This document shows, one piece after another, positions 16,502 to 36,864 of a stretch of 64,000 bases of DNA (positions are counted from its first letter, which is position 1; every line of letters starts with the position of its first letter). A program made the translations under genes and the position numbers. The notes beneath the pieces were generated by a model, which did not search any database, was not told where the DNA came from, and was given only the letters and a program-made list of their open reading frames with translations. Source of the stretch: Synechococcus sp. A15-62 (GTDB lineage Bacteria; Cyanobacteriota; Cyanobacteriia; PCC-6307; Cyanobiaceae); NCBI RefSeq assembly GCF_014280075.1, contig NZ_CP047950.1:496001-560000 (forward strand), read 5' to 3'.

Positions 16502-16597
16502 GGACACACAGCGCAATCTTCCTTTACACTCCCGAACAGGCAGGGCTGTCCTGCCCTTCCTTAAACCGTTCCTTCGGGAACATTTCTTTCCGTTCTC
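16502..16597 (+). promoter_or_regulatory. psbA promoter and 5' leader
   Basis: A good -10 hexamer TACACT lies at 16525-16530. At 17-bp spacing the -35 position reads GGACAC, a weak match, as often seen in regulated cyanobacterial promoters. The leader holds a small stem (GGCAG at 16539-16543 with CTGCC at 16551-16555) and no clear Shine-Dalgarno sequence directly before the ATG. The transcription start is inferred. Confidence 0.45.
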
Positions 16598-22271: not shown

Positions 22272-22315
22272 TTTGTAGCAACTGCTACAAACGTTCACTT
22301 CGCTACATAGCGAAG
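22272..22315. promoter_or_regulatory. two tandem perfect palindromes (operator-like)
   Basis: TTTGTAGCA and TGCTACAAA (22272-22291, 2-bp spacer) are followed 6 bp later by CTTCGCTA and TAGCGAAG (22298-22315, 2-bp spacer). Both share a GTAGC/GCTA-like core. They lie 54-97 bp upstream of the DUF4278 gene, just downstream of an AT-rich TATATTTA that could be a -10 element. They could bind a dimeric regulator or form tandem hairpins in the leader. Confidence 0.5.
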
Positions 22316-22368
22316 CGCAGTTCGACTCAGGGCATGGAACGGGGCCTGAGCTTTCTACGAGGAACACC

Positions 22369-25108: not shown

Positions 25109-25161
25109 ACGCCCCCTGATGGATTCGAACCATCGACCGACTGCTTAGAAGGCAGTTGCTC
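25109..25161. repeat. attL: 53-bp partial copy of tRNA-Arg
   Basis: Identical over 53 bp to 36701-36753. It covers the 3' acceptor strand, T-arm, anticodon arm and part of the D-arm of tRNA-Arg(UCU) and ends abruptly inside the D-stem. It cannot make a tRNA; it is the attachment site left at the distal end by integration. Confidence 0.92.
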
Positions 25162-25201
25162 GCTGCTTTGCAGCAAGGGGTTTCAGCCAATTTTTCGTGT
25201 T

Positions 25202-25210
25202 TGCACGGAA
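25202..25210 (+). repeat. left-end copy of integrase arm-type repeat
   Basis: TGCACGGAA, identical to the repeats beside the integrase at the other end and 40 bp inside attL. A degenerate second copy, TGCACGAA, follows at 25246-25253. The location fits recombinase arm-binding sites on the short arm. Confidence 0.55.
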
Positions 25211-25269
25211 GGCTGATCTCAGCACTGCTCGTTGTTCCTCGTAGTTGCACGAAGCCGCCAACCTGTACT

Positions 25270-25283
25270 AGTACATCTGTACT
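25270..25283. promoter_or_regulatory. LexA (SOS) box, cyanobacterial type
   Basis: AGTACATCTGTACT matches the cyanobacterial LexA consensus RGTACNNNDGTWCB at every position. It ends 12 bp before the ATG of the first gene in the element and overlaps a 12-bp palindrome, TGTACTAGTACA (25264-25275). The neighbouring gene is therefore probably repressed by LexA and induced by DNA damage. Confidence 0.6.
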
Positions 25284-25295
25284 TAATCAAAGGGT

Positions 25296-25544
25296 ATGTC
25301 GGTTGATCATGCAAGCGCCGTTGCTGCGCCGAAGGCGGATCCTGTTTTCCTGCACGTCAAAGCAGCCATGACCGTGATCGTCACTGACACGGAAGGCGCC
25401 TGGCGCATGGCTGATGTGATCTGGGTCGATGGCGGTGCCAGGAACCCCAAAGTTCCAACGTTGCTCCAGGTCGCTGATGTCGATACCGGCGTCATCAACC
25501 GGGTGAACGCTGACCTGGTGACTCACATCGTTCCAAGGGTTTGA
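25296..25544 (+). CDS. hypothetical protein with LexA box upstream (82 aa)
   Basis: The 82-residue protein starts MSVDHASAVAAPKADPVFLHV. Its core, MTVIVTDTEGAWRMADVIWVDGGARN, followed by LLQVADVDTGVINRVNADLV, suggests a small beta-rich fold. No family is recognised. AAAGGG just before the ATG is a good ribosome-binding site. Its position beside attL and behind a LexA-type box suggests DNA-damage-induced expression in the element; the role is unknown. Confidence 0.6.
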   Translation: MSVDHASAVAAPKADPVFLHVKAAMTVIVTDTEGAWRMADVIWVDGGARNPKVPTLLQVADVDTGVINRVNADLVTHIVPRV

Positions 25545-25559
25545 TCGCCAATTGAAGAC

Positions 25560-25853
25560 ATGATCCCGAAGGTGATTTTGAGATCACAGGCGCACGGGAC
25601 AGGACACACCAAAGGTGTAGGTACTTGCGTCAGATCTATGTACTGCGTTGAACGGGACAATGGCCCCGATCAGTGGGCCAGAGAAACTTGCTTTCAAACT
25701 GAATTCAAGGCGTTCGTTCATGCCCGCACAAAATCGCTGGCAACAGGGAACACCTATCGAGTTCTGTTCAGCAGCCCCTCCATTACAGGAGAGGTGCTGA
25801 GAGTTTCGAAAGGGAAGGCACTCTTAGATGCCGATGACCAACTAGTTGGTTAG
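25560..25853 (+). CDS. hypothetical protein (97 aa)
   Basis: The 97-residue protein starts MIPKVILRSQAHGTGHTKGVG and contains three cysteines. A C-terminal beta-like segment, YRVLFSSPSITGEVLRVSKGKALLDADDQLVG, ends it. It begins 15 bp after the preceding stop and may share its transcript. No domain is recognised. Confidence 0.48.
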   Translation: MIPKVILRSQAHGTGHTKGVGTCVRSMYCVERDNGPDQWARETCFQTEFKAFVHARTKSLATGNTYRVLFSSPSITGEVLRVSKGKALLDADDQLVG

Positions 25854-25877
25854 GGGTTCAGCTGCCAACCTTGGCGC

Positions 25878-26150
25878 ATGCACAAGAATTTCAAGCAGGG
25901 CTTAGGTATCGGGGTCGGAGTTGCTGCTGGCATCGCCCTCTTTGGCTTTGGAGCGGTTTGCTTGAAGGAGCTGCCCCTCAGAATTCAGTGGGCGGCCTAC
26001 AACTTCAAGCTCAGTGACCTTGAGATCAAGAGGAACTGTCCTAGTCCCTCAGTCCAGTGCCGCAGCTTCGACATGAGGGTCAAAGACTCGATCCAGGGGT
26101 TTTTCGCATCCAGCCAAGAGCTGGAATGGGTAAAGCCTCTGCTGGAGTGA
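25878..26150 (+). CDS. hypothetical membrane-anchored protein (90 aa)
   Basis: The 90-residue protein has one N-terminal transmembrane segment (residues 9-31, GIGVGVAAGIALFGFGAVC) after a basic MHKNFKQG. The soluble tail contains two cysteines (KRNCPSPSVQCRSF). No family is recognised. Confidence 0.5.
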   Translation: MHKNFKQGLGIGVGVAAGIALFGFGAVCLKELPLRIQWAAYNFKLSDLEIKRNCPSPSVQCRSFDMRVKDSIQGFFASSQELEWVKPLLE

Positions 26151-26250
26151 TTTCGTCCGACGTCAGCAACCGCTCCCGTTCCAGTCGGAGGTAGCGCTTC
26201 CCTCGGGCTGCAACCTCAGGCAGCAGCAGTTACAGCAAGGCGAGCACCTC

Positions 26251-26319
26251 AAGAGGAAGTGCAAGCTTTGGGCTCCCACCTGGCAGAAGCAAGTCGGTTG
26301 GGCGTATGAGGCTGGCTAA
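26251..26319 (+). repeat. peptide-coding repeat KCKLWAPTW, copy 1 (remnant)
   Basis: The frame encodes 22 residues with the core KCKLWAPTW and GWAYEAG before TAA. A second 69-bp copy lies at 26776-26844 in the same orientation. Most differences between the copies fall at third codon positions, so the repeat is or was translated. This copy has no in-frame start nearby, and the surrounding bases hold no other gene. Confidence 0.5.
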
Positions 26320-26480
26320 ACAAGCGAAACCACCAGCCTTCACAGAGGTGATCTCGCCGCTCTCAGTCAGTTATGCAAATCAACTGCGAGCAGTTCAGTC
26401 CTAGCTCTTTTAATTAGTAGCAAGTGCATCAAAGAATCCTAAATAATCGGGTTAGAAAGCCTGTCTGATGACGCAGAACC
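26320..26480. other. AT-rich non-coding gap
   Basis: Together with 26151-26250 this gives about 330 bp without an intact gene around the repeat remnant. Base composition shifts to AT-rich here, marking the start of cargo unlike the host sequence. No clear promoter or hairpin is visible. Confidence 0.35.
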
Positions 26481-26768
26481 TTGAATCGCCTTCCTTTTCT
26501 TGTAGTAGCTCTTTTGATTGCAGTCCCTGCAATAGCTGAAACCCGAAAATATGGCCCATTAATACTTGATTTTGGACGCTCTCAAAAAATGGGTGATTCA
26601 ATTGTAGTTCCAGGTGTAAACCCTCAAAAACAGCCTCTTTTCATTGCGGTTCTATGTACGGAGCGTTTATTCAATTTCACTGGTGCTGGATCGAAATGGA
26701 ATGACTGGAATGAGCCGGCTACTATTCACGAAGCAAAAATTGTTGCCGATGTATGTAATTTTATTTGA
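26481..26768 (+). CDS. small secreted hypothetical protein (95 aa)
   Basis: A TTG start gives 95 residues with a convincing signal peptide (MNRLPFLVVALLIAVPAIAE, cleavage after AIA). The mature part includes KYGPLILDFGRSQKMGDSIVVPG and two cysteines (VLCTER, DVCNF). No ATG lies in frame before the upstream stop. Composition is AT-rich relative to the chromosome. No family is recognised. Confidence 0.5.
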   Translation: MNRLPFLVVALLIAVPAIAETRKYGPLILDFGRSQKMGDSIVVPGVNPQKQPLFIAVLCTERLFNFTGAGSKWNDWNEPATIHEAKIVADVCNFI

Positions 26769-26775
26769 GCGCCTG

Positions 26776-26844
26776 ATGAAGAAGTGCAAGCTCTGGGCAC
26801 CAACGTGGCGTGCTGAGGCTGGCTGGGCTCCTGAAGTCGGCTAG
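26776..26844 (+). repeat. peptide-coding repeat KCKLWAPTW, copy 2
   Basis: ATG to TAG encodes MKKCKLWAPTW then GWAPEVG, 22 residues, the same length as copy 1 and diverged mainly at synonymous positions. The core is shared exactly at the protein level while Leu, Ala, Pro, Thr, Gly and Ala codons differ. It might be a free-standing short peptide or the end of a decayed gene. Confidence 0.45.
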
Positions 26845-26868
26845 AACTGCAAGGCACGCACCAAGCAA

Positions 26869-27546
26869 TTGGCTGAGGTCCTCCTAGACACGAAGTTCTG
26901 GAACAAGGTCTTCAAGATTCTGAAGCCGGCAACTGTTGTTGCAGTAAAGAAAATTAAGGGGAACGCAAAAGGAAAGCTCATACCATCCGATTACAGCCTC
27001 AACATGAATAGGAATACAGACAACAAAGTTGGCTTCATTCTTAAATGCATGGCAGAGAACGTTGAAGGGCCCTACTCAGCTAAAAGTAGAATTCTTGTCG
27101 CAAAACAAAGAGCCCAGAAAGAGGGCATCACAGGATCCATAATAAAAGAAATTGAAAAATCAATTGTCATAGTGGCAATTCATGAGGGAATCCTCCCTGA
27201 GACAGCGCGCTACGAAGGGAAGCATGTTGTCGTCATTCAGAGTCAGAACGAAGCGAACTCAATAACGTATTCAACCGAGGCGTATGGATTCGTTTACTTC
27301 GTCAAAAATTCTGACATCTACAAAATTGGAATTACCGAGAATCTGCTTAGGCGGATGAAAGAGCTGAACCCTGATGAGATTCTCAACTCGGTTCGTTGCA
27401 GCAACTACCAAGAGGTCGAAAGGAAAATGCATGCTCATTTCAAAGAAAAAAGGATTCCACAAACGGAATACTTCCGACTTGATCCGGCCGAGGTAGAGCA
27501 AGCACACTCCCTGATGACTGACTTGGCCGATTTCAAGGGCCGCTGA
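26869..27546 (+). CDS. T5orf172/MUG113 (GIY-YIG-like) domain protein
   Basis: The 225-residue protein ends with a T5orf172 domain (about 140-205): GFVYFVKNSDIYKIGITENLLRRMKELNPDEIL followed by VERKMHAHFKEKRIPQTEYFRL. This GIY-YIG-related nuclease fold is common in phages and mobile elements. The first 130 residues are lysine-rich and unassigned. The start is TTG; the frame stays open back to the stop of the repeat just upstream, so the true 5' end is uncertain. AT-rich codon use differs from the chromosome. Role: possible homing or defence nuclease, by inference. Confidence 0.65.
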   Translation: MAEVLLDTKFWNKVFKILKPATVVAVKKIKGNAKGKLIPSDYSLNMNRNTDNKVGFILKCMAENVEGPYSAKSRILVAKQRAQKEGITGSIIKEIEKSIVIVAIHEGILPETARYEGKHVVVIQSQNEANSITYSTEAYGFVYFVKNSDIYKIGITENLLRRMKELNPDEILNSVRCSNYQEVERKMHAHFKEKRIPQTEYFRLDPAEVEQAHSLMTDLADFKGR

Positions 27547-27780
27547 GCTCAACGCTTCAGCCAGCGCAGCAGGGGAGGCATCACCCTTGAGCTGTATCCC
27601 CGGCCGACGTAAGTAAACACACTTAACCCAGCCGTAGGAAGCGAGCCCGCTGGGCTGCACCGGTCATCCCTCAATGTCGTTCCAGGCCAAAAAAGTTTTA
27701 ACATTCGGGCCGCGACGCGACGCTCACATGCGAACGAAATTCGGAGGTAAGAGGTAAATCTAGGGCTTCAGCAGCTTCCA

Positions 27781-27805
27781 GCTCGCTAGCTCAGTTGGAC
27801 AGGCC
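27781..27805 (+). other. tRNA 5'-half-like fragment
   Basis: GCTCGCTAGCTCAGTTGGAC resembles the first 25 bases of the tRNA-Arg gene at the right end (GCTCCCTTAGCTCAGCTGGA), including the D-arm, but no anticodon arm follows. It may be a remnant of an earlier integration or excision event, or chance similarity. Confidence 0.3.
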
Positions 27806-29515
27806 TTAAGAAGACTTAGCTTGCTTGGCTGATGAAGAAGTTGAATGATTCTGAGAGTTATTGTGAGATTTAAATAGATTCAGTCTCTTCTGAATCGCAT
27901 CGGTTGAAAGTTCCTTCTCAATGCGGGTTTTGGTTAATTTTAAGAGACTACCAGAAATATCGCTTCTAAAAACAATTAAATTTGTTTGTGGATCAATGCA
28001 GAACAGATGCTTATCAAAAGCGCTGTGATGTGTTGGGCAAAGTGGAATTCCATTTCTTGGTTCGTCGGAACCTTGCTCAGAGACAGGCACTATATGCGCC
28101 GCCTCTAGAACACTCTTGATACTGAAATCACAACATAAGCATGTTGTTCCATGTAATGCGAAAACCGCTTCACGAAATCCAGAGTCTCTAACCCTTACTT
28201 TTGTCTGCAAGAGGCGAAGCTGTCTATCAAGTGCAACTAAGCTTGCTGGATTTTGTGAATTATTCTCATCTAGTTTATCCTTAGGTAGAACCACTTCGTC
28301 AGTAGATTGAATGTATTCTTGAACCATTCTGCTTAGAGGTCCAAAACTGACTGAAGCTGCTTTGCTAAAAGCCTTCCTGAACGAAGCAATCTTGTCTATT
28401 TTATAGCCTGAGCGTAGACAAATTGAGGTTTCAGGGACGCCTTCAGTCAATGCATCCACGGCAAAATCGACTAAATCTCGACCTGAAAGAAGCAAAAATC
28501 TTTTTGCTTCTTCTTGACCAGAACCGAGATCTAGTATCGAATTTCTCTCGAGCTTTCTACGTTTAAGATCTTGGTTTTTACGCAGTTCTTCAATTTTGGA
28601 ATCAGACCTTCTCTTGGATTCCATTAAAAGGATCTCGTTTATAGGTAATCCACGATGCGCACTCCTAATTGCGTCGATGATTCCAGTTACATCGCCTTTG
28701 TAATCATGCTCTTTGACTCTTTTATCAGGAACGATCCAGCCATTGCGAGCCGCAAAAAAGTTCCAAAGAGTTCTTAACCTTTTTGCGCCAGCCTTTTGAT
28801 TAGCTAGCACTTCTAGCTCATAGTCATAAAAAGTGGAAACAATATCGCCCACTGCTTTCTGCTTATTGCCTGCAAATCTTTTGTTTAGACCAGAGAATAG
28901 ATTGTTTATGAACTCAACTTTATTGTCTTTATTGTATCCACAAGCTTTAGCTAAGTCTATCCAGCTTGTAGGTAGAAGCGAACGACTTGATATCAAGTGT
29001 TCGCATTGTGAAATCAATTCTTCGCCCTTAAGCTCGCCTCGCAATGGTGGAAGCAAAGATTTTGGAGGATCAAATGCGATGCCTCTTTTGTTCAACTCGT
29101 TAAGAAGAATATCTTCCCAGTTTAAACTATTATTTTGGCGAAGTATTTCGGCTGCCAGCGCCCGATCTGACGGTTCATACAATCCGTCAGGACTTCGCCT
29201 GATCCATCCAGCATGGAGTGCAAGATAAACTAGTGGTCTTTGGAATTTAAGTGATTTATGGCTAACTACACAAAGAGTATGGAGATGATGGTCTGGGAAT
29301 GCGGATAAAAAATTAGAAGTAATTCGATTCTCCCATCCTCTGCCTTTTGTGTCTATGTAGGCTCGGCAGAGCTCATCAAAAAAGTCTTTTGTATCAAGAT
29401 CTGAATAGCCACATTTCTTTTTTAAGGTAGATATCTTTATAAATAGGCTTTGACGAAAGCACTGTTCAGATTTCTCATATAGAGCCCTTCCTCTTGGGAC
29501 TACTGATGATTCCAT
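27806..29515 (-). CDS. HNH endonuclease with large unassigned N-terminal region
   Basis: The 569-residue protein has an HNH nuclease domain at about 445-515: CLCCDF then LEAAHIVPVSEQGSDEPRNGIPLCPTHHSAFDKHLFCID. The paired Cys, the AAHI His and the LCPTHHSAFD motif are intact, in the style of restriction-type HNH enzymes. The first 440 residues match nothing I recognise; they include helical, basic stretches (SKRRSDSKIEELRKNQDLKRRKLERN). The gene is visibly AT-richer than its surroundings, a sign of transfer. A defence function is an inference from domain and context. Confidence 0.75.
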   Translation of the reverse strand: MESSVVPRGRALYEKSEQCFRQSLFIKISTLKKKCGYSDLDTKDFFDELCRAYIDTKGRGWENRITSNFLSAFPDHHLHTLCVVSHKSLKFQRPLVYLALHAGWIRRSPDGLYEPSDRALAAEILRQNNSLNWEDILLNELNKRGIAFDPPKSLLPPLRGELKGEELISQCEHLISSRSLLPTSWIDLAKACGYNKDNKVEFINNLFSGLNKRFAGNKQKAVGDIVSTFYDYELEVLANQKAGAKRLRTLWNFFAARNGWIVPDKRVKEHDYKGDVTGIIDAIRSAHRGLPINEILLMESKRRSDSKIEELRKNQDLKRRKLERNSILDLGSGQEEAKRFLLLSGRDLVDFAVDALTEGVPETSICLRSGYKIDKIASFRKAFSKAASVSFGPLSRMVQEYIQSTDEVVLPKDKLDENNSQNPASLVALDRQLRLLQTKVRVRDSGFREAVFALHGTTCLCCDFSIKSVLEAAHIVPVSEQGSDEPRNGIPLCPTHHSAFDKHLFCIDPQTNLIVFRSDISGSLLKLTKTRIEKELSTDAIQKRLNLFKSHNNSQNHSTSSSAKQAKSS

Positions 29516-29566
29516 GACACAATCACCCCAGCAATAGGAATTATAGTTCTGATATTGATACTTGCT

Positions 29567-30022
29567 TTAGCTCGTAATAGGTCGAATGACATGGCTTAGA
29601 TGCTGACTACCACATGTAGCTTCTGTTTCCAGGGCCTGAAGTGTATCCCTTACTTCTTGAAGCTGCCTCCTTTGCTCCTGCTCCAGGACGTTCTCGCGCA
29701 AGATTTTGAAGCTCTCGCTGATGGCCTGCGTTCTTGCATACGCCTTCACATTGGGATCCAGTGCAATCTGAATAAGTTCATCTGCAAGTCGTGGTGCTGC
29801 TGAAGTCAGCAAATTGTTGGCGACGTTGAGGTTTTCACGTACCAACGCTTCGATGAACTCTTCAGCCCTGCGGTCTCGATACCACTTTCGGAGGCAAGGC
29901 GCCTTGATGCCAACAGCAGCTGCAGCATCAGCCCAAGTGGAGCCATTGGCGCAAAGCGTCAGAGCTTTGATGATGTGCGGCGGTATTGCGTCAAATCTGT
30001 TGACGAGCTGATTCTCACTCAT
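29567..30022 (-). CDS. small terminase (TerS)-like helix-turn-helix protein
   Basis: The 151-residue protein has an N-terminal HTH (about 18-50, ALTLCANGSTWADAAAAVGIKAPCLRKWYRDR) followed by a long helical region (about 55-135) and a polar tail, the layout of phage small terminase subunits. I chose the ATG at 30022 because it overlaps the upstream stop as ATGA; a longer start at 30064 is less likely. In a satellite element such a protein could redirect packaging by a helper phage. A plain DNA-binding regulator is the alternative. Confidence 0.6.
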   Translation of the reverse strand: MSENQLVNRFDAIPPHIIKALTLCANGSTWADAAAAVGIKAPCLRKWYRDRRAEEFIEALVRENLNVANNLLTSAAPRLADELIQIALDPNVKAYARTQAISESFKILRENVLEQEQRRQLQEVRDTLQALETEATCGSQHLSHVIRPITS

Positions 30023-30273
30023 GACATCGCTCCAGGGAAACCTTTGGCTTTCAGCTGCTTCCATTTGCGCAGCCTTTGCCTGTCACTCATGCCAGGAGCC
30101 CTGCGGTCCCGTAGTTGCTCAGGTGTGATGCCTTCGAGAATCCAGCGTTGATATGCAAGCCTTCCAAATTCATCTGCTGCGTGTTGATCTCTGCTGAACA
30201 GTTGTTCTGCCACCCGGTTGCAACGTGAGAGGACGATCCACTCGTCTATTGTTGTGTTCCAGGTGGTATTCAT
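30019..30273 (-). CDS. hypothetical protein (84 aa) upstream of the TerS-like gene
   Basis: The 84-residue basic protein starts MNTTWNTTIDEWIVLSRCNRVA and ends RQRLRKWKQLKAKGFPGAMS. It is predicted helical with Arg/Lys-rich segments suited to nucleic-acid binding. The stop overlaps the ATG of the TerS-like gene by 4 bp, so they are translationally coupled. No family is recognised. Confidence 0.55.
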   Translation of the reverse strand: MNTTWNTTIDEWIVLSRCNRVAEQLFSRDQHAADEFGRLAYQRWILEGITPEQLRDRRAPGMSDRQRLRKWKQLKAKGFPGAMS

Positions 30274-30589
30274 CTCGACAAGATGCGCTTTCTTGAATAC
30301 TACCTAGTCTTTTTATCTAGCGGCTGTGCTACATTAAATCTATCGAGAATTGGTGCTGTTTCAAAAGGTTCCCTAGGGGTTGCTGATAACATCAGAAATC
30401 CGAACCCTTCCCCCTAAGCAACCAGCAAAGCTAATAACAGCAAGTGTCATCTAATAGGCCAATTGCATAAGAAATAGTCAGCAAAGATCACTGATCTCTT
30501 GTGATAGCCAGGTAGGAACACCGCGTAAAATACAAATAAGACGCGGTGGCAGGCTAAAACTGCGTTCTTGCCTACTTAAAAACTTAAAA
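30274..30589. promoter_or_regulatory. 316-bp divergent intergenic region with inverted repeat
   Basis: It lies between the leftward TerS-like operon and the rightward compact recombinase gene. It is AT-rich and contains a perfect inverted repeat CACCGCGT/ACGCGGTG (30519-30526 and 30541-30548, 14-bp spacer) 42 bp before the recombinase ATG, likely an operator. A distant GGTTGCT/AGCAACC pair flanks a second segment near 30380-30430. Confidence 0.45.
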
Positions 30590-31165
30590 ATGAAGTCCAA
30601 TCGACACGGGCAGTCGCGTGTGTTGAGCACCGACGAGCTCGATTTATTGATTTCAAAGCTGCCTGAGCAGCATCACCAAATCGTTGCCGAGATTTGTCGC
30701 CGTACTGGCTGCCGCATTGGCGAGGCAACGCAGCTCACCTGGGGCATGATTTCGGAATCTGCCGTTACGTTCCAGCGGGGGATCACCAAAGGCAAGCTGG
30801 CAAGTCGGTCGGTGCCGGTAACGCCGCAGCTATGGGAAGCCCTGCGCTCTTGGAGAGCTGCTTGGGTGGTACGGCAGGGTCGCGAACCTCTAGGTGGTGA
30901 CTATCTCGTTCCAGGCAGATTTGCAGGTTCTTGCCTGAGTACGCGCAGCTTTATGGATGCGCTTGAAAGGGCCGCGGCTGAATCGGGCCTAGAAGGCGTT
31001 TCTAGCCACTCTTTTCGGCGTTCGGCCTTAACTTCGGCGCACAATGCTGGAGTGCCGTTGAGGGTGCTTATGGCCCTGTCTGGGCATAAATCAATGTCAG
31101 CGCTCCAGCGGTACTTAGAAGTAACTCCTCAGCAGCGTGAGGAAGCCGCTGCGACTTTTGCCTGA
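30590..31165 (+). CDS. compact tyrosine recombinase (catalytic domain only)
   Basis: The 191-residue protein is a phage-integrase-type catalytic domain with almost no N-terminal core-binding domain. Arg42 (RTGCRIGEA), Lys67/69 (TKGK), His140-x-x-Arg143 (SSHSFRRSAL), His166 (LSGHKS) and Tyr175 (ALQRYLEV) form a full active site. It may invert or resolve DNA within the element, or be the recombinase of a nested element. It is GC-rich compared with the HNH cargo and is transcribed away from the main integrase's neighbours. Confidence 0.85.
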   Translation: MKSNRHGQSRVLSTDELDLLISKLPEQHHQIVAEICRRTGCRIGEATQLTWGMISESAVTFQRGITKGKLASRSVPVTPQLWEALRSWRAAWVVRQGREPLGGDYLVPGRFAGSCLSTRSFMDALERAAAESGLEGVSSHSFRRSALTSAHNAGVPLRVLMALSGHKSMSALQRYLEVTPQQREEAAATFA

Positions 31166-31173
31166 TAAGTCAC

Positions 31174-31707
31174 TTATTCCAGAAGTTCGTCTTTAGTGAT
31201 GCTTTCATGACGCAGCAGTGCAAAGGTTGTACCTGCATTGCCTCTGCAAATTCGTAATTCTTCGTCCAAGAACGTGATATCCAGCCATGCAGGGAAGCTT
31301 TGCTCAACCTCGCGTAATAACTTGAGTTGGCCAATTCCTGGTAATGAGGGGCCAAGCCAGCCTCCTTTATGGAATTTGACCTGGACTCGTTTCTCGTTGA
31401 TTACTTCCAGATCAGCCTGGACGCTGATTGCTCCCATTGCTCCAAATGGTCCACGCAGTCGGAGTAAATTGCATCCTCTTTTCTGAGCAGGGTCCAGAAC
31501 CTGAAGATTCTCTAGCCATGGTGCTTGACGCAACCAGGGCTGGCTTGAACTGCTCCAACGCAAGTCCCATACACCCTCAAGAAGCGCAGAATCGCGGCTT
31601 AAATCAGCTGGGTGTGATTGTTCAAGTGCTGATACTCGTTCAGCAATGCTGGGGTCATTGGGAGTGCGCTGAAGTATTGACACCAGATCATCGCGTGCAT
31701 CCGACAT
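31174..31707 (-). CDS. PAP/fibrillin-family protein
   Basis: The 177-residue protein resembles plastid-lipid-associated (fibrillin) proteins: an N-terminal helical part, then LLEGVWDLRWSSSSQPWL, and a lipocalin-like beta region with LRGPFGAMGAISVQADLEVINEKRVQVKFHKGG. Fibrillins associate with thylakoid lipids and plastoglobules. The ATG at 31707 (MSDARDDLVSIL) fits the family; an in-frame ATG at 31767 adds 20 residues. Finding it inside the element suggests host-derived cargo. It is convergent with the compact recombinase. Confidence 0.72.
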   Translation of the reverse strand: MSDARDDLVSILQRTPNDPSIAERVSALEQSHPADLSRDSALLEGVWDLRWSSSSQPWLRQAPWLENLQVLDPAQKRGCNLLRLRGPFGAMGAISVQADLEVINEKRVQVKFHKGGWLGPSLPGIGQLKLLREVEQSFPAWLDITFLDEELRICRGNAGTTFALLRHESITKDELLE

Positions 31708-31779
31708 GAACACATCAGCGTTGAAGCTGATTCTGTCGGAATTAGCTCTATTCCGACGTGGCCTCATTGCGTGAGGACT

Positions 31780-32010
31780 TCAGCTGAGCGGACAGAGTTG
31801 GCCAACGGGTTTGCCTTTGTCGTCGGCTGGCCTTTTGCCATCGACATGAACAACGATCCACGGTTGGAATGTCTCCACACCATCCGGTGGCTCTGGTACT
31901 TCCTCACCGCGAAAGACTCCGGTGACAAGCCAAAACGGCGGCCTTGATCGCGCCAGTTGGATTTGCTGCGCCCGCTGCAGCATTCGTTGAAGCTCTCGGC
32001 TGTGATCCAC
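31780..32010 (-). CDS. hypothetical protein (76 aa)
   Basis: A GTG start gives 76 residues beginning MDHSRELQRMLQRAQQIQLARSR. An N-terminal amphipathic helix is followed by PFWLVTGVFRGEEVPEPPDG and WIVVHVDGKRPADDKGKPVG, which look like beta strands. It lies between the PAP gene and the structured non-coding region, in the same direction as the primase gene. No family is recognised. Confidence 0.5.
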   Translation of the reverse strand: MDHSRELQRMLQRAQQIQLARSRPPFWLVTGVFRGEEVPEPPDGVETFQPWIVVHVDGKRPADDKGKPVGQLCPLS

Positions 32011-32099
32011 GAGGGGTGAGGCATCTATTTCGTTCTACCGGGGGCCAAGTTCCTGAGCAGAGCCTTTTTCCTTGGGTGAAAAGGAGGTTTAGGAGGGAT

Positions 32100-32305
32100 G
32101 AATTTTCCCCCTTATCCCCCTTTGACCTCCCTTGACTTCGCCTCTACCGCAATGGATTTGGGCCATAGGAGGGAAGGATGGTCGTACCCCCATGTGTGTA
32201 GCTCCAGGGGGGTGAATAGGTAGGGATAAATAAAGAGAGTTTTTGACCTTCCTTCCCTCTTATGGGTGATACCCCCTCTGGGGCAATGGATCTCAAGGGA
32301 GGTCA
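32100..32305. repeat. nested inverted repeats, candidate replication origin or structured RNA
   Basis: The outer arms TGACCTCCCTTGA (32123-32135) and TCAAGGGAGGTCA (32293-32305) pair perfectly. Inner 21-nt arms (32163-32183 and 32245-32265) pair with two imperfections, one of them a possible G-U pair. A central stem ACCCCC/GGGGGT lies at 32186-32191 and 32208-32213. A 9-bp direct repeat GCAATGGAT (32149, 32283) sits just inside the outer arms. It abuts the 3' end of the primase gene in otherwise gene-free DNA. Confidence 0.65.
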
Positions 32306-34813
32306 CCCCTGCCCTCCTTCGTCCCCCCTATCCCTCCCAGCATCTGGAGCAGCTCGATACTCCAAGCCACCTTTTGGCCCCGGACGCACCTCCCCGTAGC
32401 CGTTGTTGGCCAACTCTTGGAGCATCTCTCTTTGCTGCTCGGCTTTGAAATTCTCTCTGAGGTGTTTGTCGAGGCCTTGCCCGAGTTCCCTCCTTGAGAT
32501 CCAGCGGCCTGGTTTCTTCAGAGCAATCTCATGAAGGCGGAACGAGCACCGCTCCTCCTCTGTTTGATTTGCCATCCGCTGGAACTGGGTGGCGTAGGCA
32601 TCGCTGTGATCAACGATCCGAATTGCCCGTTCCACCATTGAGGCATCAATTTCTGCTGGACAGCTGGGCCTGTCGATTGCTGCACTAATCAACCAGAGCA
32701 AGCCAGCAATCCGCCCCACTTTCCCTGGAGCTTTATTCAGCAGACCAGCATGTGAACCCAGGGCAGCCTTGGAAGCCTCCAAGCTTTTGCGGTCGTAGTA
32801 ATCGCTAAAAATCGCTTGAGCCTCTGTGCTGAGTTGGAGCTGCAAAAGGGGTGGATTTTTGCTGCCAATGAGCCGCAGGATTTCTCCAACAGCCTCACGA
32901 GCCAGCTTGATTTCCTCGAGTTGTTGACGCGGCACGTCCCTGGGAAGCGTTGCCGGTATTGACGGCAACTCAGAGAACAGGAAGCGTGCCCACATCCCAT
33001 CTGCATCGTCATCTGTCTGCAGCTTCACCAGAACATCCGGCTGAATTGAGCCAGTGATGCTGACCTTCGTCCTGGAACAAAAGCGGCTCTTGCCAACACG
33101 CTTGGTTTCGAAACTGCCGCCGTCGTAAAGCTCGAGAAGTTGCTTGCCCTGTCCTGTGCCGGCCTTGCTGCCACCACCCTTGTACTGATCCATGCTGATG
33201 AAGACACCAGCTAATTCATCCTTAGCGATCAGAAGTGCCAGGCCGTACTCCTCCTGCGTGATGAGTTGCTCCTCAAGCCCCTCCTGATTGGTGTCACTGA
33301 GAGAGACGGTTGCAGGTTTCGGCGGGTCGTATTCGTCATCGCTGTCTTTCACCTGCTCGTTGTACGAGGCAAGTTTGTCTTCGTACAAACCACGGACATA
33401 ATCCGCGTAGTGCACCAGCGGTTGTTTGATCAGTGCCTTCTGGGCCGGGGATTTCTGCGTTCCTGTCTTGCCCACCACGCAGTGGAACAAGTTCAACGGA
33501 ACACTGAAGTTAGTCGCTTCACACAAGACGACCTCAGTACCCATTCGAGCGGCAGTGGAGACAGCGACCAAATACGAATTGATCACCAGTGCTTCCGGCC
33601 ACGGAGAAAAGCAACTCATCAGCTTCAAGTCATGAGCCAGTGGTGCTGGGAAGACGTCATCCAGTAACGGCGCCGTCGCTGATTCCTCCTTCTGTGGTGG
33701 ACTCAGTTCAATCGGCCGTGCACTTGGGGGCTCATATCCGAACTTCCGAGCCTCCTCGATGAGCGACCCAAGGTCCCAATGATCTTCCCTGCTTCCTTCG
33801 TTACTGAAGCTGCTCCACTTGTTTTCGAGAGCAGACTCGCCGTCGTATTTGGGAGCCTTGGAGCACCAGTCATTCCAGTAAGGGAACAGCAGCCATTCGT
33901 CGCTTGAACGGGACGACAGCAGGTGTGCCACCATCCCAATCATGAGGAAGAGGTTGTATCCCCGCGTCTCCTTACTCTTTGGATCGAGCCAATTCTCGAC
34001 GATGTCAATGAAGATCTTGATGTCGCGCTCAGGGTCGCCGATCTGTAGGTGTTTTTTGTGCTCCTGAGAAATGAATCCAGAGCCATTGGCCCGGGATTTT
34101 TTCTCGGGTGCTTCTACCTCCGGGCAACACTGGAGGATGTCCTCCAGGGCGTAGCGCTTTTCGCAGCCGCCAACGATTTCGGCACGCTGTCCCGTATCGG
34201 GGTGCACCGACCCTGCCAACCGCAGCGGCTGGTTAGCCCTGTGCATGCTGTGGTCGGTTTTGACTTCCGCCGAATAGGTCTTCGCCAGATACCCATCGAC
34301 TTGAGCACTAAGACCCGCCCGAGCGCGTTCACCCTCCGCAACCCCGCAGGGCTTATCCAGTACGTAGTAAACATGCACTGACTTGTTGCCGGTAAAAACC
34401 ATCAGCGTTGGTTCCGGCAGTCCTGCATGTCGCCAGATTTCTATTTGCTCCTCTACCGAGACTTCTTTGCTGTCGATCTCATAGATGAGGAAGCGCACCT
34501 CGAAGATTTCATTGGCTTTGGTTCCGCCAGGTGATCCACGAAATCCAAGGCTGCCGCCACCGTTCTGGAGACTTGATATCGCATGCTCCCAGTACTTTTC
34601 TTCTGCGTGCCTCTTGCTGCACCATTCGCCAGCAAGCTTCCAATTACATGTCCGTCCTTCCTCGTGTGACCAAATAGGGATGTGACCGGTGCGTGTACCA
34701 CCCCACAAAAACAGAAGGACGGCTTCACCAATCACAAAGCCGACGATATTCAGGTGTCGTTCTGCATCCTTGATGCAGATATTGTGAGCAGCTAACGGAG
34801 TACTGGTGCCCAT
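32303..34813 (-). CDS. primase-helicase (AEP-like primase plus DUF3987)
   Basis: The 836-residue protein has an N-terminal primase-like domain (about 80-230) with FLIYEIDSKE (ExD metal motif near 112-114), GNKSVHVYYVL (SxH) and DHSMHRANQPLRLAGSVH, the pattern of archaeo-eukaryotic primases. A primase C-terminal-type helical segment follows (about 275-345). From about 385 comes a DUF3987 helicase-like ATPase whose P-loop reads GKTGTQKS, with Gln in place of the usual Gly, as this family often shows. It probably initiates replication of the element. It is transcribed with the xis-like gene. Confidence 0.8.
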   Translation of the reverse strand: MGTSTPLAAHNICIKDAERHLNIVGFVIGEAVLLFLWGGTRTGHIPIWSHEEGRTCNWKLAGEWCSKRHAEEKYWEHAISSLQNGGGSLGFRGSPGGTKANEIFEVRFLIYEIDSKEVSVEEQIEIWRHAGLPEPTLMVFTGNKSVHVYYVLDKPCGVAEGERARAGLSAQVDGYLAKTYSAEVKTDHSMHRANQPLRLAGSVHPDTGQRAEIVGGCEKRYALEDILQCCPEVEAPEKKSRANGSGFISQEHKKHLQIGDPERDIKIFIDIVENWLDPKSKETRGYNLFLMIGMVAHLLSSRSSDEWLLFPYWNDWCSKAPKYDGESALENKWSSFSNEGSREDHWDLGSLIEEARKFGYEPPSARPIELSPPQKEESATAPLLDDVFPAPLAHDLKLMSCFSPWPEALVINSYLVAVSTAARMGTEVVLCEATNFSVPLNLFHCVVGKTGTQKSPAQKALIKQPLVHYADYVRGLYEDKLASYNEQVKDSDDEYDPPKPATVSLSDTNQEGLEEQLITQEEYGLALLIAKDELAGVFISMDQYKGGGSKAGTGQGKQLLELYDGGSFETKRVGKSRFCSRTKVSITGSIQPDVLVKLQTDDDADGMWARFLFSELPSIPATLPRDVPRQQLEEIKLAREAVGEILRLIGSKNPPLLQLQLSTEAQAIFSDYYDRKSLEASKAALGSHAGLLNKAPGKVGRIAGLLWLISAAIDRPSCPAEIDASMVERAIRIVDHSDAYATQFQRMANQTEEERCSFRLHEIALKKPGRWISRRELGQGLDKHLRENFKAEQQREMLQELANNGYGEVRPGPKGGLEYRAAPDAGRDRGDEGGQG

Positions 34814-34870
34814 CTAAAATGAGGGTGTGACGTGCAGAGATGCCTGGGGAGTCTTTTGGTGCGGGCAGAT

Positions 34871-34897
34871 GGTCACCGCGGTAACGGTGACCTTTTT
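34871..34897 (+). terminator. hairpin with T-run between xis-like and primase genes
   Basis: A perfect 8-bp stem GGTCACCG/CGGTGACC with loop CGGTAA is followed by TTTTT on the plus strand. It sits in the 91-bp leader between two minus-strand genes, so as a terminator it would only act on antisense transcripts. The dyad could instead be an operator controlling the replication gene. Confidence 0.55.
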
Positions 34898-34904
34898 ATG
34901 CCGA

Positions 34905-35141
34905 TTATTTCTGCTCGGAAAAGAACAGATAGCCCTGGTGCTCCATGGCTTCTTTCACCAGCTCCATGTGCCAAGCAGTCTTAGAAGTCCGGTAACGCCC
35001 CTTCTTGAAATGTTTGCCTTCGAGAAGAAACCCTGTTTCTGCGTTGGCATAACGCCGCAGTGACCATTCGCTGATGCCTAAAACCCTCGCCGCCTGGCGG
35101 GTCGAAAGCCAAGTTTCGTTTTCAGGAACGGTGGTGAACAT
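34905..35141 (-). CDS. excisionase/AlpA-like winged-helix protein
   Basis: The 78-residue protein carries a MerR/excisionase-type DNA-binding segment: WLSTRQAARVLGISEWSLRRYANAETGFLLEGKHFKKGRYRT. Small proteins of this kind act as recombination directionality factors or as activators of satellite genes. The ATG at 35141 is preferred to a TTG four codons upstream. It lies between the integrase and primase genes in the same direction, the usual place for xis in such elements. Confidence 0.75.
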   Translation of the reverse strand: MFTTVPENETWLSTRQAARVLGISEWSLRRYANAETGFLLEGKHFKKGRYRTSKTAWHMELVKEAMEHQGYLFFSEQK

Positions 35142-35306
35142 TATGGAGATCAAAGGTTCTTGTGGTTCAACGTACCCGCCAAATCACACCCCGCATGGCT
35201 AATTACCACCATCCATAGTGTCCCGTGAAAATATAACTTTCTTGGCTAGTACATCAGGCCGTCGATTTCGTTCTGCTTGCTTTCTATTCGCTGTTTGTTT
35301 GAGTTT

Positions 35307-36551
35307 CTAGATTGCTACTTTAGAAGTGTTGGATATCTCAAACGCTTCTTTCACAAGCTTCAGGCTGTGTTGCCGCTGGTACGTCTGAAGGTGAACTTGC
35401 AGGCTGTGCCCCATCGCTACTGCTGCCGCTTTAGGTGGGATTGGAGGTGTGGCCATTGCGCATCGATCAGCAAAACAATGTCGAAGGCTGTAGAGGCTCA
35501 CCCGCTGCCCCATTGCCTTTGCGTCTGCCTTGTATTCCATCCAGACGTCGTTTCGCCGCAGGAAAGTGTCTATGGCTCCCGACGCGGCCTTATCGGTGCT
35601 TCCCAATGGAGGCAGTTCAGTGATGCCGCTGCTCAGTGTCATCAGCAGCTGTTGCCCAAGCCCTGCTCGTCCTGCGGGGTCAAGGATTGGGATGTCTCTT
35701 GCTTCTGTTGACCCTTTGGCAGTCCGTTTCCCGTAGTTGACGTGCAGGTGGTCACGGTGAGCAGTGGCGTATTTGAGTTCCACCCCCCGTAGGCCGAAGA
35801 CACCGATCAACCCCACCGCCAGCTTCCAGCGTGCGTTGGCAATCGAGTCGAACAAACGCAAAAACTGTTCGTCCGACAGGGCTAACGCTTGCCCCGATTG
35901 GCTGGCCTTGCTGCTGTTGGGTGCTGGCTCACCTATGAGGTCCCGAATGGTGTCTTCGTCTGGGGGAAGCCAGCGACCTGAAGCACCGCACTTCGACACC
36001 GCAAACCTGAGCATCTGCACGGCGTACTGGATTCGGAGCTTTCGGCTGCGACTTCCCGGTGCATCGCCTTGCCCGTTTCGCCCTGCGCGCATGGCTGCCA
36101 ACGCAAGTTCGGCGTTGTTTGGTGCGTCTGCCCCAGTCAGTACGTCAATCAGCCAAAGCAGCCGGGGTGCGTACTCCTTTTCCCAGGTGGTCTCCTTGAC
36201 CTTCGCCGGCACTTTGAAGTCGTAGAAGCGGCTGTAAATCTCCCGCCAGTTCGTTTGCACCTTCAGCCCTGCGGTGAGGTCGAAAGTCAGCCGCACTGCG
36301 TCCTTAAGCGAAAGCCCCTTGGCGATTGCGGCATTGATGCCGTGCAGGGCATTGAGGACTTCTCGTTCGCAGCCACGCCGCCACTCAATGGGCAAGGTTG
36401 CGGCTTGGCGTTTGCCGGTGTCTTTCCAGTACCGCTCGACCTGCACCTTCCCGCGCATGGGTCTTACCGAGTAGCCCCATTTGTGCTGCGTCTTAATCGC
36501 ACGCTTCAGTGCCGCCTCCCAAGGCTGTGCGTCAGCGCGCTCCTTTGGCAT
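35307..36551 (-). CDS. tyrosine recombinase/integrase of the element
   Basis: The 414-residue protein has an N-terminal arm-binding and core-binding region (about 1-220) and a catalytic domain with Arg255 (FGLRGVEL), the box Tyr354-Ser-Leu-Arg357 (SLYSLRHCF, Tyr where many have His), Gly-His382 and the nucleophile Tyr391 (LQTYQRQH). It lies directly downstream of the tRNA-Arg 3' end and faces into the element, as expected for the enzyme that inserts it. Its promoter overlaps the TGCACGGAA repeats, so it may repress its own gene. Confidence 0.88.
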   Translation of the reverse strand: MPKERADAQPWEAALKRAIKTQHKWGYSVRPMRGKVQVERYWKDTGKRQAATLPIEWRRGCEREVLNALHGINAAIAKGLSLKDAVRLTFDLTAGLKVQTNWREIYSRFYDFKVPAKVKETTWEKEYAPRLLWLIDVLTGADAPNNAELALAAMRAGRNGQGDAPGSRSRKLRIQYAVQMLRFAVSKCGASGRWLPPDEDTIRDLIGEPAPNSSKASQSGQALALSDEQFLRLFDSIANARWKLAVGLIGVFGLRGVELKYATAHRDHLHVNYGKRTAKGSTEARDIPILDPAGRAGLGQQLLMTLSSGITELPPLGSTDKAASGAIDTFLRRNDVWMEYKADAKAMGQRVSLYSLRHCFADRCAMATPPIPPKAAAVAMGHSLQVHLQTYQRQHSLKLVKEAFEISNTSKVAI

Positions 36552-36565
36552 GTGCGTCTCTCCCG

Positions 36566-36646
36566 TGCACGGAAACTACCGAGCTGCACGGAAGATTGCA
36601 CGGAAACAGCACGGAAGATGCCCAAACATCCTCAAAATGCACGGAA
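36566..36646 (+). repeat. five TGCACGGAA-type repeats (integrase arm sites)
   Basis: TGCACGGAA occurs at 36566, 36585, 36597 and 36638, with AGCACGGAA at 36608, all in the same orientation within 81 bp. They lie between the integrase start and attR, with one further copy near attL. This is the arrangement of arm-type sites bound by the N-terminal domain of tyrosine integrases. Confidence 0.65.
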
Positions 36647-36700
36647 GCTGGCAGGGCTGGTCTCGGTGTGAGAAGCCCTGCTGCTGCTTGGCTTTTAGTA

Positions 36701-36753
36701 ACGCCCCCTGATGGATTCGAACCATCGACCGACTGCTTAGAAGGCAGTTGCTC
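36701..36753. repeat. attR: 53-bp repeat inside tRNA-Arg
   Basis: Identical to 25109-25161. This copy forms the 3' two-thirds of the intact tRNA-Arg gene, so integration preserved the tRNA. Distance from copy start to copy start is 11,592 bp, the unit length of the element. Confidence 0.92.
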
Positions 36754-36775
36754 TATCCAGCTGAGCTAAGGGAGC
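36702..36775 (-). tRNA. tRNA-Arg (anticodon UCU)
   Basis: A 74-nt cloverleaf on the minus strand: acceptor GCTCCCT/AGGGGGC with one G-U pair, D-arm TAGCTCAGCTGGATAGAGC, anticodon loop CTTCTAA giving UCU, T-arm GGTTCGAATCC and discriminator G. CCA is not encoded. Its 3' side is the attachment site of the mobile element. Confidence 0.94.
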
Positions 36776-36864
36776 AAGCATCCACATCTTGGCAGGCTGC
36801 TTCAAGGCAGGCTGGTATTGGAAGCCTTGCGCCGCCTAAGGTGATGGGCTATTGATCGGCATCC

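Follow-up and report, generated by a model that had tools for sequence, protein, structure and literature searches.

Why does a set of nested inverted repeats lie directly 3' of a primase–helicase gene in the chromosome of the marine picocyanobacterium Synechococcus sp. A15-62? In the window, as we call the whole stretch of 64,000 nucleotides that was analysed, the repeats sit within an 11.6-kb element integrated in tRNA-Arg. A first-pass annotation, made from the sequence alone, had offered a replication origin, a packaging site, or a structured RNA as explanations, and this interpretation is partly supported here. Judged by sequence comparison, the array at 32080–32340 is very probably an iteron-type replication origin of the integrated element (25109–36776), bound by the C-terminal winged helix of the element's own primase.

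The repeat array and its host element

The two outer arms (13 bp each) are 100% complementary, and the two inner arms (21 bp each) are 90% complementary, as had been annotated. Both lengths lie above chance: across 500 dinucleotide shuffles, the longest perfect arm did not exceed 12 bp, and the longest arm with at most two mismatches did not exceed 18 bp (0/500 matches in each case). The 6-bp central stem was recovered inside a 9-bp inverted repeat (32186–32194 and 32205–32213) with 8/9 positions complementary. Two copies of the annotated direct repeat, GCAATGGAT, are present inside the outer arms (32149–32157 and 32283–32291), but the word is absent from the recurrent pattern and may be due to chance. 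The stretch had also been called gene-free. This is mostly correct, but the final three bases of the right outer arm are those of the primase stop codon (32303–32305), and three sites fall in the last codons.

The features placed at 32100–32305 are real, but the structure is larger (about 32080–32340) and is best described as approximately 14 two-strand repeats of 11 bp. A two-strand motif search, run with a single simple finder and the width fixed at 11, identified approximately 14 degenerate copies of a word with a consensus of about AAGGAGGGA, spanning 32081–32339 (Table 1). The motif score of the array (79.4) was equalled by none of 200 shuffles of the region and by none of 196 other windows of the 64 kb. 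The arm-shuffle and motif-score tests exclude chance, and the array is non-random. A dispersed repeat was considered and rejected: when 98 genomes were searched with the array as a DNA query, no copy turned up beyond the window, and a motif search of the strain's genome, with at most one mismatch allowed, gave the window's two copies plus two sites with one mismatch, a lower number than in the reversed control. With its 14 sites, the array has the multiple clustered copies of one short sequence expected of an iteron origin. It adjoins a PrimPol/DUF3987 gene with a predicted C-terminal winged helix, just as an iteron origin adjoins an initiator gene with a DNA-binding domain.

The sites run in mirror order, with four dyad pairs among the 14; the order is less clean than in relatives, and the iterons of the window are degenerate. 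On the primase side the layout is +++- ++. The far side mirrors most of that and has a few extra weak copies. The AT-richest stretch reaches 65–70% A+T, which is mild as a signal of an unwinding region, and we regard it as a candidate for that role. In relatives, the mean G+C drops from approximately 0.65 at the edge to approximately 0.47 near the dyad centre.

Table 1. Features of the array and of the integrated element, in window coordinates.
Feature	Position	Strand	Evidence
Iteron array, proposed replication origin (whole feature)	32080–32340		Repeats and layout common to relatives
Three outer iterons at the primase-side end (32329–32339, 32320–32330, 32309–32319), in the last primase codons	32309–32339	-	Motif search
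Opposed iteron; holds right 13-bp outer arm (32293–32305)	32293–32306	+	Arms and motif search
Inner iterons, primase side; right 21-bp inner arm (32245–32265)	32243–32265	-	Arms and motif search
AT-richest stretch, candidate unwinding region	32218–32250		Composition; function inferred
Small central stem near the dyad centre	32186–32213		8/9 complementary; two weak iterons at 32206–32228
Inner iteron, distal side; left 21-bp inner arm	32163–32183	+	Arms and motif search
Iterons 32122–32132, 32113–32123, 32104–32114; left 13-bp outer arm (32123–32135)	32104–32135	-	Arms and motif search
Two outer iterons at the distal end (32090–32100, 32081–32091)	32081–32100	+	Motif search
Segment coding for the C-terminal winged helix (about residues 752–822), proposed iteron-binding domain	32348–32560	-	AlphaFold2 pLDDT ~91 over the domain; VIA-align Z 9.9 (Zur), 9.3 (Z-alpha)
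Primase–helicase, 836 aa: archaeo-eukaryotic PrimPol, PriCT-2, DUF3987 (MCM-like AAA+ helicase), C-terminal winged helix	32303–34813	-	Pfam, profile, Foldseek
Tyrosine recombinase/integrase, 414 aa	35307–36551	-	PHROG_1 integrase, E 3.5e-12; 99% identical copy at the same tRNA in G029
Terminase-small-subunit-like protein (weak match)	29567–30064	-	PHROG_7344, E 4.9e-5
Intact tRNA-Arg(TCT), integration target, near end of element	36701–36776	-	ARAGORN, Rfam, duplication
Attachment-site copy, 53-bp duplicate of the tRNA-Arg(TCT) 3' part, far end of element	25109–25161	-	Identical to 36701–36753; 100% over 53 bp versus G029 copy; tRNA fragment by ARAGORN and Rfam

The element is bordered by the identical 53-bp duplication of the 3' part of tRNA-Arg(TCT), and the integrase gene adjoins the intact tRNA. 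Further genes encode a second short recombinase, a terminase-small-like protein, HNH and GIY-YIG nucleases, and a PAP/fibrillin-type protein. No match to a structural protein was found among the nine element ORFs tested. The element thus has the features of a PICI-like phage satellite: an integrase, an att duplication, its own replication module, a TerS-like gene, small size, and no structural-protein match in the nine ORFs. It may also belong with the tycheposons, on the basis of two features, the tRNA border and the tyrosine recombinase.

Several other genes were noted. The PAP_fibrillin-family protein (31174–31767, -; E 2.7e-17) is an unusual cargo gene. The region 26869–29515 encodes a GIY-YIG/T5orf172 protein and an HNH protein, with a sub-threshold match to a phosphorothioate-DNA restriction nuclease; PADLOC labelled it PDC-S57 and HNH, and these genes are possible defence cargo. 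Sister elements with other primases (L036, L040, L041, L042) retain a block made of a short catalytic-domain-only tyrosine recombinase (30590–31165, +), a small protein (30019–30273, -), and the TerS-like gene. Another small ORF is found close to the far att site here (25560–25853, +) and beside the primase in the element of genome G029 (L041:3579–3869); judging by its placement, gene order is shuffled between the two elements. Outside the element, PhotoRC-I and Glutamine-II riboswitch matches occur at 16538–16581 (+) and 22289–22350 (+).

The primase–helicase matches the Pfam families PF13148 (DUF3987; E 8.5e-36) and PF08707 (PriCT-2; E 2.4e-5). The profile of its primase domain matched the PrimPol structure 6zp9 (E 5e-23), and Foldseek names the PrimPol of cyanophage S-2L. 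The helicase part was placed by Foldseek among MCM proteins and SCCmec Cch. The model of the whole protein is moderate (mean pLDDT 74). Because winged helices are a common fold, the winged helix predicted at the C-terminus speaks for DNA binding but is no proof of it. Among named relatives, the one nearest to the primase is from an uncultured Synechococcus, and others are found in Prochlorococcus and Cyanobium. Relatives were recovered through an alignment-based search; single-protein scans of genome and viral collections with the primase gave none. Against named phages, the primase had no match, and a phage-type relative of it gave two weak matches.

Recurrence of the array beside related primases

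Inverted repeats were found 3' of the primase in 22 of 49 loci of cyanobacterial genomes in a first test (local p ≤ 0.05). A second set of 79 loci, which overlaps in part with the first under different names, was measured from the stop codon and gave 48 positives. By this measure, plasmid-type proteins with long C-terminal extensions seemed to be without arrays. This reading was rejected, as a plasmid scan put the array right after the winged-helix segment, in frame. With the end of the winged helix as the starting point, a repeat-dense window was present in 89 of 121 primase-family loci (local p ≤ 0.05, the floor of these p-values being near 0.005–0.02, as set by the number of windows). The frame continues past the winged helix in 26 loci, and 22 of these are array-positive. 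Clustering at 80% identity left 45 of 68 clusters positive (binomial p 7e-42). Other gene ends in the same loci, which served as a control, were positive in 12 of 384 cases (3.1%). About a quarter of the family members are negative in the array test, some close ones included (L075, L082, L090, L092).

In ten of the 12 plasmid loci, the array follows immediately on the winged helix and lies within the coding sequence, hundreds of bases before the stop. In most plasmid loci, no other window of the stretch examined is as dense in repeats. The positive circular plasmids include a 6,987-bp plasmid of Microcystis and a 7,645-bp plasmid of Oscillatoria. On plasmids L184, L190, and L192, the array is translated in frame into an S/T-rich linker ahead of a further C-terminal segment. 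The viral contigs with the module include at least one true tailed-phage genome (L167), which has genes for a terminase and for the tail.

The repeat word varies by lineage (for example TGTAGGTAGGT, ATCGGCAAACA, GAATGTTGGCT, ACGGTAGACAC), but its order and strand recur. Two to four same-strand copies are followed by one opposed copy, one or two inner copies, a gap of approximately 50–100 bp, and then the mirror image. Of 31 distinct iteron families, 16 have an outermost pair of copies at each end that agrees, with the pairs pointing towards each other (12.5% expected; p 1.6e-7). Over the whole set, the excess of dyad pairs is modest (4.27 versus 3.56 in orientation shuffles) because the matching tolerance is loose. 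The first-pass annotation had made its interpretation depend on conservation of the paired arms in relatives; the layout is indeed kept, but the sequence changes. As far as sequences can tell, cyanobacterial satellites, phages, and plasmids share this mirror-image layout, built each time from a different repeat word. This comparative evidence, namely the fixed place and the recurring layout in relatives, strongly supports the annotated option of a replication origin.

Pairing of repeats with the winged helix, and other readings

Iteron similarity tracks the identity of the C-terminal domain, most clearly among pairs whose cores are at least 70% identical (rho 0.81; the pairs are non-independent, and many come from one near-identical group). 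The clearest pair is close to a natural swap. The primases of L067 (Synechococcus sp. Baikal-G1) and L070 (Cyanobium sp. Cruz-8D1) are 97% identical in the core and 59% identical in the C-terminal domain, and their iterons are unrelated. The DNA of the two loci is approximately 83% identical over 5.5 kb upstream and 3.3 kb downstream. Between these flanks, the two sequences cannot be aligned from -36 to +280 relative to the primase stop, a stretch that covers the array, and identity is lower already from about -200. A larger exchange is seen in the sister element of G029, which has a 99% identical integrase and the same tRNA, but a D5-type primase and a TCCGGACA array; relative to the window, the whole block at about 31,971–34,871 is replaced as one. 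D5-type primases with a TCCGGACA array of the same spacing, 300–750 bp downstream of the stop, were seen in two genomes (L041:3300–3564 and L042:4585–4849), and these arrays are probably another origin family. One Crinalium strain has three plasmids with three different iterons, as would be expected if iterons set incompatibility. That winged helix and iterons change together lends indirect support to binding of the iterons by the initiator. We propose that the iterons and the winged-helix segment beside them make up a single specificity cassette, which may be changed or exchanged as a unit.

Could the structure of the dyad, and not the repeated word, be what the replication protein recognises? 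In such a stem–loop (cruciform) origin, the long dyad would extrude, as for pRN1, whose PrimPol–helicase–winged-helix protein requires a 100-bp dyad or stem–loop origin immediately downstream of the gene that encodes it (PMC4234260). In the arrays, dyad partners resemble each other more closely than other iteron pairs do, and more so when 8 flanking bases are included (0.557 versus 0.458 for non-partners, p 1e-6). A stem–loop or cruciform may therefore matter besides the iterons, and pairing between the halves may add to function. However, recognition of the structure alone leaves the same-strand copies in each cluster (+++- and +--- layouts) unexplained, and the word changes along with the winged helix. 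The arrays also differ from a single large stem–loop without iterons in having same-strand repeats, although dyad partners pair better. We consider this mode of recognition unlikely; a stem–loop of this kind is still an origin, and only the mode of recognition differs.

The remaining readings give the array a role other than replication. Either strand can form an extended nested hairpin (about -100 kcal/mol), as a structured RNA or a 3' regulatory element of the primase transcript might, but the z-scores are only -1.9 and -1.6, and 11 and 13 of 200 shuffles fold at least as well. An Rfam search found no family at the site. Repeats in both orientations make any strand foldable, and the plasmid arrays lie inside translated sequence. 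The RNA option of the first-pass annotation is thus weak, and we hold it to be very unlikely. An operator or terminator acting solely on neighbouring transcription would fit the location at a gene end; such repeats are, however, rare at the other 3' ends of the same loci (12/384), and their position is tied to the winged-helix segment even where the gene runs on, as in the plasmids. This reading is more improbable still. The annotated packaging site (pac/cos-like) would be recognised by the small terminase of the element, which does encode a terminase-small-like protein. A homologue of this protein lies near only one of 60 array-bearing loci (the count is for that family; other terminases near arrays exist, for example in L167), arrays occur on plasmids too, and the array always adjoins the primase. 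Of a packaging role, little credibility is left.

Proposed initiation and comparison with known systems

We favour the iteron-type origin, and the best reading, by analogy, is that it works like the staphylococcal SaPI origins. The course of initiation is proposed because of the analogy to SaPI Rep (PMC7581432) and pRN1 (PMC4234260). The integrase would excise the element as a circle, and the winged helix of the PrimPol/DUF3987 protein would bind the approximately 11-bp iterons on both sides of the dyad. Since the array halves are mirror images, two helicase rings may be placed facing each other. The AT-richer centre would melt, and the PrimPol domain would prime synthesis. A broader proposal, on which our judgment is evenly balanced, is a widespread cyanobacterial replicon class common to satellites, phages, and plasmids. 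It would combine PrimPol, an MCM-like helicase, and a winged helix; the mirror iteron layout would be fixed and the word free, two rings would be loaded head to head, the winged helix and array would be an exchangeable cassette, and the plasmid origin would be hidden in the coding sequence of the initiator. In the open-access literature, we found no description of origins for this PrimPol/DUF3987 protein family.

The array provides a sequence-level handle on the replication start of abundant, little-studied mobile elements in picocyanobacteria and other cyanobacteria. The initiator–origin pairing is readable from sequence, which makes incompatibility, module exchange, and small cyanobacterial shuttle vectors testable. 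The L067/L070 pair is a ready-made natural experiment on specificity, and with the mirror layout lying beside an MCM-like helicase, whether two rings load head to head can be tested directly in a bacterial system.

The C-terminal domain of SaPI Rep recognises iterons directly downstream of the rep gene, as described in PMC7581432 (Ubeda et al. 2007 cited there). SaPI/PICI origins share with the array an initiator helicase with a C-terminal DNA-binding domain, a short-repeat origin directly 3' of the gene, and an integrated satellite-type element. In contrast to them, the DUF3987 helicase is here fused to PrimPol, approximately 10–14 iterons have a lineage-variable word, and plasmid arrays lie inside the coding sequence; the fixed mirror order of the iterons may be a further difference. 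The likeness to pRN1 is in the domain order (primase, helicase, winged helix), in a dyad-symmetric downstream origin, and in an origin whose sequence varies and whose structure persists. pRN1 has an SF3 helicase and a single stem–loop of approximately 100 bp without iterons, whereas the iterons here extend over approximately 260 bp.

In the PLE satellites of Vibrio cholerae, the N-terminal RepA_N domain of RepA binds three iterons of approximately 30 bp (PMC8263062). The DNA-binding domain of that initiator and the origin iterons covary and swap as a module, as is proposed here, but the protein architecture is unrelated to that of the window primase. For SCCmec cch2, the C-terminal domain on its own binds direct repeats that lie in the intergenic stretch following the helicase gene (PMC7581432). 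A C-terminal domain and repeats downstream of a helicase gene are common to both systems, but SCCmec has three iterons and a D5-type helicase. The tycheposons/VEIMEs of marine bacteria are named in PMC10803314, and their tRNA and tyrosine-recombinase borders are given in PMC10872708. Like them, the element studied here is integrated in a tRNA gene and has a tyrosine recombinase, and it comes from the same picocyanobacterial group.
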